64,000 bases of DNA from Gammaproteobacteria bacterium (GTDB taxonomy: Bacteria; Pseudomonadota; Gammaproteobacteria; VBWC01), in assembly GCA_023266115.1 (NCBI GenBank), contig JAHFRU010000005.1, positions 62,001-126,000 on the forward strand, written 5' to 3'. The notes under the pieces are model-generated. The model made no database searches and was not told the DNA's origin. It worked only from the letters and a program-made list of their open reading frames with translations. The first letter of the stretch is position 1, and each line of letters opens with the position of its first letter. Position numbers and translations under genes: made by a program. This document shows, piece by piece, positions 19,801 through 24,148 of this stretch.

Positions 19801-19965
19801 GCTCTATGCCGCGAGTGTTGTTTGCGCTGCGCCGGTTCCGACGGATCATGTGGCGTCCGGTAAATGATCTTCGATCCGGGTAGCGCGCCGCGTACGATGA
19901 TGACCGACATGGTCTAGAATGTCGTGACCGCGCCAGGCGGCGGTAACCAATCAAGGGGGCGGGCG

Positions 19966-20391
19966 ATGCTTTGGGTCAAGGCGTTTCACATCATATTCAT
20001 GGTGACGTGGTTCGCCGGCCTGTTTTATCTGCCGCGCCTGTTCGTCTACCACGCGACGGCCGATGACCGCATCGGAGCCGAGCGCTTCAAGGTCATGGAA
20101 CGCAAATTGTTCCACGGCATCATGACGCCGGGCGCGGTGCTGACGATTGCGTCCGGGCTGTGGATGATGATGGACTACGCGTGGGCGGCGTATGCCCACG
20201 CGGGGTGGTTTCAGTTGAAGCTGGCGCTGGCGCTGGTGTTGATCGCTTACCACGTCTACTGCGGCAGGCTGGTCGCTGCTTTTCGCGATGACAATAACCG
20301 GCGCGGACACATCTATTACCGGTGGTTCAATGAATTTCCGGTGCTGTTGCTGATCGCGGTCGTGGTACTGGTCGTGGTGCGGCCATTCTAG
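19966..20391 (+). CDS. hemJ: Protoporphyrinogen IX oxidase HemJ
   Basis: HemJ is the membrane-bound protoporphyrinogen oxidase (old name UPF0093) that performs the penultimate step of haem synthesis in bacteria lacking HemG and HemY. The 141-residue protein opens with LWVKAFHIIFMVTWFAGLFY and LPRLFVYHA, the family hallmark containing the conserved histidines. It continues with FHGIMTPGAVLTIASGLWM and four predicted helices. I chose ATG 19966 because it begins directly before this motif. The last 47 bases are duplicated immediately downstream. Confidence 0.95.
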   Translation: MLWVKAFHIIFMVTWFAGLFYLPRLFVYHATADDRIGAERFKVMERKLFHGIMTPGAVLTIASGLWMMMDYAWAAYAHAGWFQLKLALALVLIAYHVYCGRLVAAFRDDNNRRGHIYYRWFNEFPVLLLIAVVVLVVVRPF

Positions 20392-20528
20392 CTGCGCTGC
20401 GAGCGGGGGAATGGCGAGCTTTGGGGCCGTCGCCTGTTGTTGCTGATCGCGGTCGTCGTGCTGGTCGTGGTGTAGCCGTTCTAGCTGCGCTGCGAGGCGG
20501 GGGAATGGTGAATTTTGGGGCCGTCGCC
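20345..20528. repeat. Tandem duplication of the hemJ 3' end (about 93-base unit, two copies)
   Basis: The segment from the last hemJ codons (TGTTGCTGATCGCGGTCGT) through GGGGCCGTCGCC recurs directly after itself: copy 1 at about 20345-20437, copy 2 at about 20438-20528. They differ by a few substitutions and one inserted G. The second copy still shows the C-terminal codons of hemJ but is cut by a TAG. It explains the repetitive reading frames on the opposite strand. Confidence 0.9.
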
Positions 20529-20644
20529 GCCGCCGTTTTCGCGCCCGGACCGGCCGGTTTCCGGCCCTTGACAATCCGTACCAGGCATGAGCTTATGCAC
20601 ACACTTCGGCTGATTTCCCGCCAGCGGTTCGGAGCGCATCAAAT

Positions 20645-20664
20645 TTTTACGTTATTTCGTAAAA
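20645..20664. promoter_or_regulatory. Inverted repeat, possible operator or unwinding element
   Basis: TTTTACG-TTATTT-CGTAAAA is a perfect palindrome with seven-base arms and a six-base spacer in an AT-rich stretch (about 20640-20750) upstream of priA. It could be a regulator site or part of an AT-rich unwinding region. Confidence 0.4.
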
Positions 20665-20767
20665 CTTCGTAACCTGTTGAATTATGAAGTTGTTAATCGG
20701 CGTCTACTTTGTAGTCAATTTGTCAAAATTCCAAAGATTATCGAGACTAGGCGCGCTTCGACCCATA

Positions 20768-20802
20768 TCATCCACAGAGTTATCCACAGCTTTTGTGAAT
20801 AA
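20768..20802. promoter_or_regulatory. Cluster of three DnaA boxes
   Basis: Within 35 bases there are TCATCCACA (20768-20776, one mismatch), a perfect TTATCCACA (20780-20788) and an inverted TTATTCACA (20794-20802, plus-strand TGTGAATAA). The context CAGAGTTATCCACAG matches what I recall of the E. coli oriC R4 box. The region lies 100 bases before priA and just after an AT-rich stretch. It could be an origin, a DnaA-controlled promoter or a titration site. The rest of the 510-base hemJ-priA gap holds only the repeat and palindrome listed separately. Confidence 0.75.
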
Positions 20803-20901
20803 GGGCGATTCCATCGGTCCGACAACGAGTTAGCCAGTGTTCATGCTGAGTGCATCAAGAGTTAAAGCCAACTCCGTGTCGGGCAAGCCGGAGTCAAACG
20901 C

Positions 20902-23136
20902 ATGACCGGAATTCCTCGGGTTTTACGCGTGGCGGTTCCGTCGCCGCTGTGCCGGCTGTTTGATTATCTGCCGCCGCCGGGTTGCGATATCGACAAACTT
21001 GTGCCTGGTATTCGTCTGCGCGTGCCGTTCGGACGGCGTCACACGATAGGCATGTTGATCGAGGTCGCGTCGGCAAGCCAGATCGATCCGCAGCGCCTGA
21101 AAGCGGCGCTCGAGATTATCGATGAAGAACCGCTCGTCGGCCGGGATCTGCAACAGCTGTTGCACTGGGCGATCACCTATTACCATCACGCGCCCGGCGA
21201 TGTGATGTTTACCGCACTGCCGGCACTGCTGCGTCAGGGCCGCGCGCCCGATGTTGCGCAGCAGATGCTATGGCGCGCGAGCGGTGCCGGTACGAGCGTG
21301 CGGCCCGAGCAACTGGCGCGCGCGCCGCGCCAGGCAGCACTGCTCGCGTCATTGCAGGGACATCCGGCAGGACTGACCGCCGACGATTTGACCGGGCAGT
21401 TCGATTTTGACTGGCGTGCGGCGCTGCGCACGCTGACGGCCAGGGGCTGGATCGAACAACATGCGGTAGCTGCCACGAGCGACGGCGCGGCGTCCGGTGG
21501 CGCCGCCGGGCTGACTGCGGAGCGCGGACCGGAGCTGAACGCCGCGCAACGCGTGAGCGCGGATCGGATCGTGGCGTCGCTCGGCAGCTATGCGGCGTTC
21601 TTGCTCGATGGCGTGACCGGCAGCGGCAAGACCGAGGTCTACCTGCAGGCGCTCGCGCGCGTTGTCGCTACTGGAGGGCAGGCGCTGGTGCTGGTGCCGG
21701 AGATAGGCCTGACGCCGCAACTGGTCGCGCGCTTCGAGCAGCGCCTCGGCATCACGATGGCGCTGTATCACTCCGGTTTGACCGACCGCGAGCGCCTGCA
21801 CACCTGGCTCGCGGCCCGCGCCGGCCAGGTGCCGGTGGTCATCGGCACGCGTTCGGCACTATTCGTGCCGCTCAAGCGTCCGGCGTTGCTGATTATCGAC
21901 GAAGAGCACGATCTGTCGTTCAAGCAGCAGGAGGGATTTCGCTATCACGCGCGCGATCTCGCGGTGGTACGGGCACGCAATGCCGCGGTGCCGATCGTGC
22001 TCGGGTCGGCGACTCCGTCGCTGGAAAGTCTGTACAACGTCGCCCAGGAGCGCTATCAGCATCTCACGTTGAAGGCGCGCGCCGGTGTCGCCGAACAACC
22101 ACAGGTGCATCTCATCGACGTACGCCGCCAGCCGCTGCACGAAGGGTTATCGGATAGTTTGTTGCAGGCGATTGCGCGGCATGTGGCACTAGGCAACCAG
22201 GTCCTGTTGTTTCTGAACCGCCGCGGCTATGCGCCGACGTTGTTGTGCCACGATTGCGGCTGGATGAGCAAATGCGAGCGTTGCGACGCGCACATGACGT
22301 TTCATCTGCGGCAGCAGCGGCTGCGGTGTCATCACTGCGGCGCCGAACGTGCGGCGGTCGAGCAGTGTCCCGGCTGCGGCGGTCAGAATTTGCTGCCGGT
22401 CGGTGAGGGGACGGAGCGCATCGAGCAGGCGTTGCACGAACGCTTTGGCGATACCCGCATCGTCCGCATCGACCGCGACACCACGCGCCGCAAGGGGGCG
22501 ATGCAGGAATTTCTGGACAGCGCAGCTGGCGGCAGCGGTCGCATTCTGATCGGTACGCAGATGCTGGCGAAGGGCCATCATCTGCCGGGCGTGACACTGG
22601 TTGGCATCGTCAACACCGATCAGGGGCTGTTCGGCGCCGATTTCCGCGCGCTCGAACGCATGGCCCAGTTAATCGTGCAGGTGTCCGGTCGTGCCGGACG
22701 CGCCGACAAGCCCGGCGAGGTATTAATACAGACGCATCATCCCGACCATCCGTTGTTGCGCACCCTGGTACACCACGGCTATGCGCGCTTCGCGCGCGAG
22801 GCGCTGGCCGAGCGCGAGCAGGCCTGTTTGCCGCCGCACATGCATCTGGCACTGCTGCGCGCCGAAGCGGTAGACCGCGATCTACCGCCGAAATTTCTCA
22901 GCGCGGCCAAATCGCTGGCGCAGGGGCTGGATATCGCCGGCGTCGAACTGCTGGGACCGGTGTCGGCGCCGATGGAGCGCCGCGGTGGCCGTTACCGGGC
23001 CCAGCTGCTGGTGCAGGCCGGTCGGCGTATCGATCTGCACCGGTTACTGGCGCCATGGGTGCCGCAGCTGGAAACCGTGCGGCTTGCCAGAAAGGTGCGC
23101 TGGTCGCTCGACGTCGATCCGCAGGAAATGGTCTAG
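20902..23136 (+). CDS. priA: Primosomal protein N' (replication restart helicase PriA)
   Basis: PriA is a 3'-5' superfamily 2 helicase that loads the replisome at repaired forks. The 744-residue protein has the N-terminal DNA-binding domain (RVAVPSPLCRLFDYLPPPG), Walker A GVTGSGKTEVYL, the DEEH box in LLIIDEEHDLSFKQQ and motif GSATPSLES. The zinc-binding cysteine cluster CHDCGWMSKCERC...CHHCG...CPGCGG is complete. The C-terminus RWSLDVDPQEM is typical. The stop codon coincides with the left end of an IS5-like remnant. Confidence 0.97.
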   Translation: MTGIPRVLRVAVPSPLCRLFDYLPPPGCDIDKLVPGIRLRVPFGRRHTIGMLIEVASASQIDPQRLKAALEIIDEEPLVGRDLQQLLHWAITYYHHAPGDVMFTALPALLRQGRAPDVAQQMLWRASGAGTSVRPEQLARAPRQAALLASLQGHPAGLTADDLTGQFDFDWRAALRTLTARGWIEQHAVAATSDGAASGGAAGLTAERGPELNAAQRVSADRIVASLGSYAAFLLDGVTGSGKTEVYLQALARVVATGGQALVLVPEIGLTPQLVARFEQRLGITMALYHSGLTDRERLHTWLAARAGQVPVVIGTRSALFVPLKRPALLIIDEEHDLSFKQQEGFRYHARDLAVVRARNAAVPIVLGSATPSLESLYNVAQERYQHLTLKARAGVAEQPQVHLIDVRRQPLHEGLSDSLLQAIARHVALGNQVLLFLNRRGYAPTLLCHDCGWMSKCERCDAHMTFHLRQQRLRCHHCGAERAAVEQCPGCGGQNLLPVGEGTERIEQALHERFGDTRIVRIDRDTTRRKGAMQEFLDSAAGGSGRILIGTQMLAKGHHLPGVTLVGIVNTDQGLFGADFRALERMAQLIVQVSGRAGRADKPGEVLIQTHHPDHPLLRTLVHHGYARFAREALAEREQACLPPHMHLALLRAEAVDRDLPPKFLSAAKSLAQGLDIAGVELLGPVSAPMERRGGRYRAQLLVQAGRRIDLHRLLAPWVPQLETVRLARKVRWSLDVDPQEMV

Positions 23137-23538
23137 AGCCTGTTGACATATAAAATATAACGGCGTCCTCTCGTTAAGGAGGATAGTGCCATGGCAAGGA
23201 AACTACTGCGCAATGACCAATACGAACGAATTGCGGGCAAGCTATCGGCACAGCCGGGAGACCCGGGACGCAAGTCGGACAACCGGCTATTTCTGGAAGC
23301 CGTCCTGTGGATTGCCAGGAGCGGCGCGCCCTGCCGCCGGAATTCGGCGAATGGAACACCGTGTACCAACGGTTTGGCCGATGGTCGAAGAAGGGCGTCT
23401 GGCATGCGGTATTTGCCGAACTTGCCCAAGATGCCGATTTTGAGGAAGCCTTCATTGACAGCACCATCATCAAAGCCCACCAGCATGCCGCCGGTGCCCC
23501 AAAAAAACGGGCGAACAAGCGCTTGGCCGCTCGCGCGG
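23136..23538 (+). mobile_element. IS5-family (IS427-like) insertion sequence remnant, left half
   Basis: The terminal-repeat-like GAGCCTGTTGACATAT starts at the last base of the priA stop codon. A decayed transposase begins at ATG 23191 (ARKLLRNDQYERIAGKLSA) and reaches IARSGAP. About ten bases (codons for WRDL) are then missing, and the frame continues as PPEFGEWNTVYQRF and the DDE segment [15 protein letters not shown]. It ends near 23538 after a run of seven As, the usual frameshift site in this group, at the junction with the IS630 remnant. The right half is gone. It is not functional. Confidence 0.88.
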
Positions 23539-24148
23539 ATGCTTGGCCAACCACTTCTGGACGTTGGGATGCTTGTGCGCGGCGTAGTTGTCGAAGATCA
23601 AATGCAGCACCTTGTCCTTGGGCATTTCGCGATCGATCTTGTGCAGGAATCGCAGCCACTCATCGTGGCGATGGCGCGGCTGGCACTGGGCGATGACTTG
23701 GCCGTCGAGCACATTGAGCGCGGCGAACAGCGTGGTCGTGCCGTTGCGTTTGTAGTCGTGCGTCATGGTGGCCGCACGCCCCTTCTTGAGCGGCAGTCCC
23801 GGCTGGGTGCGGTCCAGCGTGCACCTGGCTCGTCTCATCGCAGTACGATGGCGTGCTCGGGCGGGGACAGATACAGCCCCACGATGTCTTCGAGCTTCTC
23901 GACGAACTTGGGATCACGCGAGACCTTGAAGCCACGCACGAGGTGCGGCTTCAGGCCGTTGGCGCGCCAATGGCGCGACACTTGCCCGCGCCCCACTGCG
24001 CGGCGATGTCCTGATTCCGCTGACCTTGGACTGCCGCAGCGCGATGCGCGCGCAACGCCAGCCTCACACTGGTGAGCTTAGAGCGAACCAACGCCTTCAA
24101 CGTCGCTTGCTCTTTGTCCGTCAAAACGATTTCCGGGGCAGTTCGCAC
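23533..24148 (-). mobile_element. IS630-family insertion sequence remnant
   Basis: On the minus strand from GTG 24148 the N-terminal transposase fragment RTAPEIVLTDKEQATLKAL is followed by an internal deletion of roughly 60 codons. Out-of-frame pieces ([33 protein letters not shown]) come next. A well-kept catalytic part follows, with [19 protein letters not shown] and [18 protein letters not shown]. It breaks off after AKHPR at about 23533, where it joins the IS5 remnant through the shared bases GCGCGG. Several indels mark it as dead. No reliable outer terminal repeat was found between 24149 and 24255. Confidence 0.85.

Follow-up and report, generated by a model that had tools for sequence, protein, structure and literature searches.

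A probable DARS2-type locus for DnaA reactivation, with a swapped order of IHF and Fis sites, between hemJ and priA of a gammaproteobacterium

The interval between hemJ and priA

The window, that is, the whole stretch of 64,000 nucleotides that was analysed, comprises bases 62001-126000 of contig C14 in a gammaproteobacterial genome of 3.10 Mb. Between a hemJ-like gene and priA lie three DnaA boxes, here called the core, preceded by an AT-rich tract with predicted IHF and Fis sites and by a further DnaA box. The features are given below in window positions, with distances counted from the start of the core.

19924-20391, plus strand: hemJ-like gene (UPF0093), upstream of the element
20593-20601, plus strand: distal DnaA box TTATGCACA, at -175
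20639-20760: AT-rich tract (65% AT) with the palindrome and the IHF-like and Fis-like sites
20645-20664: TTTTACG...CGTAAAA palindrome, inside the AT-rich tract
20670-20682, plus strand: IHF-like site TAACCTGTTGAAT, at -98, one mismatch to TAANNNNTTGATW
20637-20649 and 20683-20695, strand opposite to the site at 20670: two further IHF-like matches
20702-20716: Fis-like site GTCTACTTTGTAGTC, at -66, no mismatches to GNNYANNNNNTRNNC
20768-20776, plus strand: DnaA box A, TCATCCACA, in the position of DARS box III
20780-20788, plus strand: DnaA box B, TTATCCACA, in the position of DARS box II
20794-20802, minus strand: DnaA box C, TTATTCACA, in the position of DARS box I, opposing box B over 5 bp
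20829-20874: TTAG block and, about 40 bp on, a partly complementary arm (weak); as an inverted repeat, GAGTTAGC...GCCAACTC, 20827-20874
20902-23136, plus strand: priA, primosomal helicase, with Pfam PriA domains, starting 99 bp past the core

A preliminary description of this DNA had reported three DnaA boxes within 35 bases, the middle one in the context of E. coli R4, next to an AT-rich tract with a perfect TTTTACG/CGTAAAA palindrome in a GC-rich genome, and all of this was borne out. The core spans exactly 35 bp, with start distances of 12 bp (A to B) and 14 bp (B to C) and the orientation ++-, and the 15-bp context of box B (CAGAGTTATCCACAG, at 20775) is found unchanged at R4 in the E. coli oriC locus. 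The palindrome starts at 20645. The tract that contains it is 65% AT, compared with a contig value of 40%; of all 120-bp windows on the contig, 0.05% exceed it in AT content, and when distinct places are ranked it comes fifth, with the gap between dnaA and dnaN in first position. The boxes had also been judged to exceed chance and to lie by priA, remote from dnaA. The motif TTWTNCACA occurs five times in the window against 1.68 expected, a count reached in 2 of 100 shuffles, and the A-B-C triple, sought with the same geometry and up to three mismatches to three consensus boxes, is unique in the genome; dnaA is on the same contig, some 67 kb away. The boxes are therefore real DnaA-box sequences beyond chance, distant from dnaA. 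The distal box TTATGCACA, the IHF-like and Fis-like sites and the DARS-core geometry are additions to that description.

The whole element extends over 210 bp, in the order DnaA box (-175), IHF-like site (-98), Fis-like site (-66) and core (0). Compared with the relative G001, in which box C reads TTATCCACA, positions 20593-20802 are identical at 203 of 210 bases and free of gaps, and positions 20392-20555 align with gaps throughout. The priA genes of the two species are identical at 1904 of 1999 positions, so within the genus the element barely exceeds coding DNA in conservation. A near-tandem duplication of about 93 bp (20342-20434 and 20435-20528, 88-91% alike) covers the 3' end of hemJ and the bases after it; it is absent from G001, which leaves a large alignment gap. 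An RNA element was considered and rejected: Rfam had no hit at gathering score across the window, and the two matches it gave for 20400-20920 were at chance level. A terminator scan between hemJ and priA found nothing. On the other side of priA, an open reading frame at 23191-24075, before argS, matches DUF4096 (IS4/5-type transposase) weakly, with a score under the cut-off.

Similarity to DARS loci and conservation within the class

The text on DARS in PMC5742627 describes DARS1 and DARS2 as equal in spacing, with box I opposite in direction to boxes II and III, and names head-to-head contact of DnaA on boxes I and II as a prominent feature. We scanned the DARS1 (bioD-uvrB) and DARS2 (near mutH) regions of E. 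coli MG1655 for DnaA boxes and found, in both, start distances of 14 and 12 with the first box opposed, which is the A-B-C arrangement read from the other strand. The triple in the window thus has box I opposed to boxes II and III at the spacing common to both E. coli loci. The similarity to DARS2 extends to the flank, as in both cases IHF-like and Fis-like sites and an extra DnaA box are situated on the box-III side of the core, the two sites predicted here (-98 and -66) being consensus matches. The arrangement differs in several respects: in the E. coli locus the IHF-like sites fall at -87 and -71 and a Fis-like site at -125, so that IHF is nearer to the core than Fis, whereas here it is farther; the distal box of E. 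coli DARS2, at -185, is reversed in direction relative to the box at -175; the E. coli core boxes are weaker; and the E. coli locus adjoins mutH rather than priA. Since the order and distance of the IHF and Fis sites matter in E. coli DARS2, according to the account in PMC4245941, and the order here is core-Fis-IHF instead of core-IHF-Fis, the element is classified as a DARS2-like variant and not as DARS2 itself. The core of E. coli DARS1 shares 27 of 35 bases with the consensus of the priA-linked set described below, but that locus occupies a different chromosomal place and has no IHF-like site at one mismatch. E. coli oriC, going by its description, likewise combines DnaA boxes with IHF and Fis sites, but the boxes of that locus are laid out differently and without the A-B-C triple and, unlike oriC, the element is not at a switch of GC skew.

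In the portions of the literature that bear on this point, DARS appears as a trait of E. coli and close species, such as Vibrio and Shewanella, at uvrB and mutH (PMC4245941, PMC5742627, PMC8682772, PMC6090056), with DARS2 conserved in E. coli and seven close species, from Shigella to Vibrio and Shewanella (PMC8682772), and with DARS-like sites of V. cholerae located as they are in E. coli (PMC6090056). A DARS-type site at priA is not reported in the parts of the literature searched, which, besides these four papers, included PMC5859110, PMC4585315, PMC12371093 and PMC13220808.

Since the genus, family and order of this bacterium are each represented by only one other genome, sampling was extended to the class. 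With up to two mismatches allowed, the core pattern is present in 175 of 369 class genomes, and the reversed pattern in 0 of 369. Box geometries with spacings of 9-30, in every orientation, were searched in 92 priA upstream regions, consisting of 30 loci, the present genome (G000) and G001, and 60 stretches taken down the ranked list of the 228 genomes with a match. In that list G228 was skipped, having too little sequence upstream, and seven ranks were bypassed so that the core-bearing complete genome G034 could enter the sample. The arrangement ++-/12/14 ranks first, occurring in 41 of the 92 regions, which is a lower bound since some regions are short (minimum 34 bases upstream); the next geometry (23/14) occurs in 18, and 20 rounds of Markov-shuffled priA regions yielded no case of ++-/12/14. 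The core is absent from 51 of the 92 sampled regions, part of which have short upstream sequence.

The flanking sites are conserved in register with the core. When the elements are aligned on box A, a DnaA box appears near -177, an IHF consensus at -98 and a Fis consensus at -66. The priA regions provided 39 elements outside the genus, of which one had insufficient flank and was set aside; controls for the remaining 38 were generated by first-order Markov resampling. The distal box (up to one mismatch, -200 to -160) is present in 35 of these 38 elements (0.28 in the shuffles), the IHF-like site (-98 ± 3, up to two mismatches) in 34 (0.98), and the Fis-like site in 33 at up to one mismatch (3.3) and in 21 without mismatch (0.12). 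All three sites occur in register in 29 elements, compared with 0.00 in the shuffles, and nine lack at least one of them.

The element is not confined to priA. The exact core pattern was found at at least 117 loci and, among the matches listed, 42 are at priA and 75 elsewhere, the latter including 25 beside rpmE, four beside orn and 46 beside neither. At loci found by pattern the core consensus is fixed by construction and the flanks are unselected; some of these loci repeat genomes of the other sample, for example L140, whose priA is 96% identical to that of the window. Sufficient flank was available for 80 of 83 priA-linked elements, 24 of 25 rpmE-linked ones and 41 of the 46 others, and the counts that include pattern-found loci were compared with shuffles of single-base composition only. 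Among the matches listed, the distal box, the IHF-like site and the Fis-like site are present, respectively, in 65, 69 and 73 of 80 elements at priA, in 19, 20 and 23 of 24 at rpmE, and in all four at orn; at other places (20, 27 and 33 of 41) they are kept less well. The same architecture is thus found beside priA, rpmE, orn and elsewhere, yet usually facing the gene. By the titles of 80 of the matches listed, carriers of the core include Luteibacter, Steroidobacter, Granulosicoccus, Ectothiorhodospiraceae, Woeseiaceae, Chromatiales and one Legionellales record. In three copies whose upstream genes were checked (L060, L094, L110), these encode HemN_C or radical SAM proteins.

Origin, promoter and titration site as alternative roles

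That the boxes mark a replication origin, either oriC or a second one, was the possibility raised in the preliminary description, and the AT-rich tract, the four boxes and the IHF-like and Fis-like sites are what such a site could be expected to carry; in addition, consensus boxes are few in the dnaA region of this genome. The distribution of GC skew argues against it. In 10-kb steps along C14, skew has a value of -0.036 for 10-20 kb and lies above zero throughout 20-120 kb, hence on both sides of the boxes, and the cumulative minimum is at 12-24 kb, followed by a steady rise through the element at 82.8 kb. The sign change is near dnaA (TIGR00362, 2e-177; C14 14728-16041), beside which dnaN, recF and gyrB were identified from translations. 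The gap between dnaA and dnaN (C14:14504-14718, outside the window) contains the lowest-GC 120-bp window of the contig (GC 0.25) and three weak boxes, TTGTCCACA, TTCCCCACA and TTATCCCCG, and is the likely oriC of this genus. Two parS-like sites (C14:12252 and 12873, up to three mismatches to TGTTTCACGTGAAACA) both fall within the recF frame, and the window contains none at up to two mismatches. In complete genome G034 the element, again upstream of priA, is at 828 kb and dnaA at 574 kb, 254 kb apart; the skew of this genome changes from -0.065 at 516-536 kb to +0.059 at 688-708 kb, which brackets dnaA, and is +0.090 at 820-840 kb, placing the element within the plus arm. Two other genomes discriminate less well: in G125, where dnaA is at the contig start in broad agreement with skew (of 20 stretches, the one at 2.916 Mb deviates in sign), a distance of only about 137 kb puts the element too near to dnaA, and in complete genome G020 the skew at 1.27-1.54 Mb is too weak to separate the two. 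Several class genomes have two or three copies of the core. On the basis of skew, the position of dnaA and the multiple copies per genome, an origin at the boxes was rejected, and we regard it as very improbable.

The fallback offered in the preliminary description was a priA promoter under DnaA control, with DnaA, IHF and Fis timing priA transcription with the cell cycle and no recycling of DnaA. Several observations favour this reading: the core ends 99 bp before priA, the sampled priA-linked copies face priA, as copies beside rpmE face rpmE in 23 of 25 cases among the matches listed, and a TTAG block about 60 bp past the core start is common to priA-linked copies and absent from other copies. 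The block with its inverted arm is possibly part of the priA promoter. Pairing of the two arms is weakly supported in 78 sequences, with a mean run of 4.51 for own arms compared with 4.12 for swapped arms (maximum of 500 swaps, 4.44), and with 15 own-arm runs of at least six compared with a swapped mean of 9 and a maximum of 17. On the other hand, the four-part element also occurs beside rpmE (24 with flank), orn (four) and neither gene (41) among the matches listed, an architecture not tied to one gene, which speaks against a conserved function peculiar to priA; the element is thus probably not simply a priA operator. Furthermore, no sigma-70 promoter matching at 9 of 12 positions is present between hemJ and priA, and the head-to-head spacing is that of DARS cores. 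A pure promoter role is therefore unlikely in our view; as the element mostly faces the next gene and the TTAG block is shared, the element may take part in priA expression, either alongside a DARS function in DnaA recycling or in place of it. A site that titrates or inactivates DnaA in the manner of E. coli datA, lowering the free or the ATP-bound pool, would likewise be a non-origin cluster of DnaA boxes with an IHF-like site, the resemblance being by description (datA has DnaA boxes and one IHF site; PMC5742627, in its account of that locus). With only four boxes in 210 bp and a core geometry that is that of DARS, this alternative appears quite unlikely.

A model for DnaA reactivation at the element

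We consider the element between hemJ and priA to be probably a DARS2-type DnaA-reactivating locus in which the order of the IHF and Fis sites is swapped, and not an origin. This assignment is based on the core geometry, conservation within the class, the register of the flanking sites, the settings at priA, rpmE and orn, and the presence of the candidate protein partners. The genome encodes IHF-alpha, a Fis-like protein (102-aa frame, 46% identity, 1e-20) and a DnaA identical to that of E. coli at 304 of 444 residues, with conservation of D269, R285 and L290, which have been named for DARS activity. Residue E21 of E. coli DnaA is Q here, which counts against the DARS reading, as do the swapped IHF/Fis order, the reversed distal box, the lack of an IHF-like site at one mismatch in E. 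coli DARS1, the gene-facing orientation, the absence of the core from 51 of the 92 priA regions and a within-genus conservation hardly above that of priA.

By analogy with E. coli, ADP-DnaA would occupy boxes A, B and C, corresponding to DARS boxes III, II and I. Across the 5 bp between boxes B and C, which face each other, two DnaA AAA+ domains would be held head to head, loosening the ADP. IHF at -98 would bend the DNA and, together with Fis at -66 and perhaps DnaA at -175, would shape the complex so that ADP is released. The apo-DnaA would then depart, take up ATP and become able to initiate at oriC, most likely in the dnaA-dnaN gap some 67 kb away. Protein binding, nucleotide exchange and cell-cycle timing at the element are all inferred here from the E. 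coli system.

Beyond the single locus, we tentatively put forward the possibility that a DARS-type recharging station is old and common in gammaproteobacteria rather than an invention of the E. coli branch, that its usual layout is box-IHF-Fis-core, and that it prefers the vicinity of priA (or rpmE), where it may link DnaA recharging to PriA supply and thereby let initiation and the capacity for restart increase in parallel. If so, recycling of DnaA between its ATP and ADP forms would be a class-wide control, given the core in 175 of the 369 sampled class genomes; ready test sites would be available outside the E. coli branch; and non-origin clusters of this kind could mislead origin finders that give weight to DnaA boxes.

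Among the matches listed, Granulosicoccus and one Xanthomonas-titled record (L053, L067, L079, L088, L099, L107, L117, L129) have several cores per genome or locus, up to four in 2 kb. The copies adjoining orn, a gene situated near the datA region in E. coli, are L117, L130, L133 and L150. In an Actinobacteria-titled record (L062, 2837-2883), the core pattern occurs on both strands within a recF-like frame, probably by chance or with another function.
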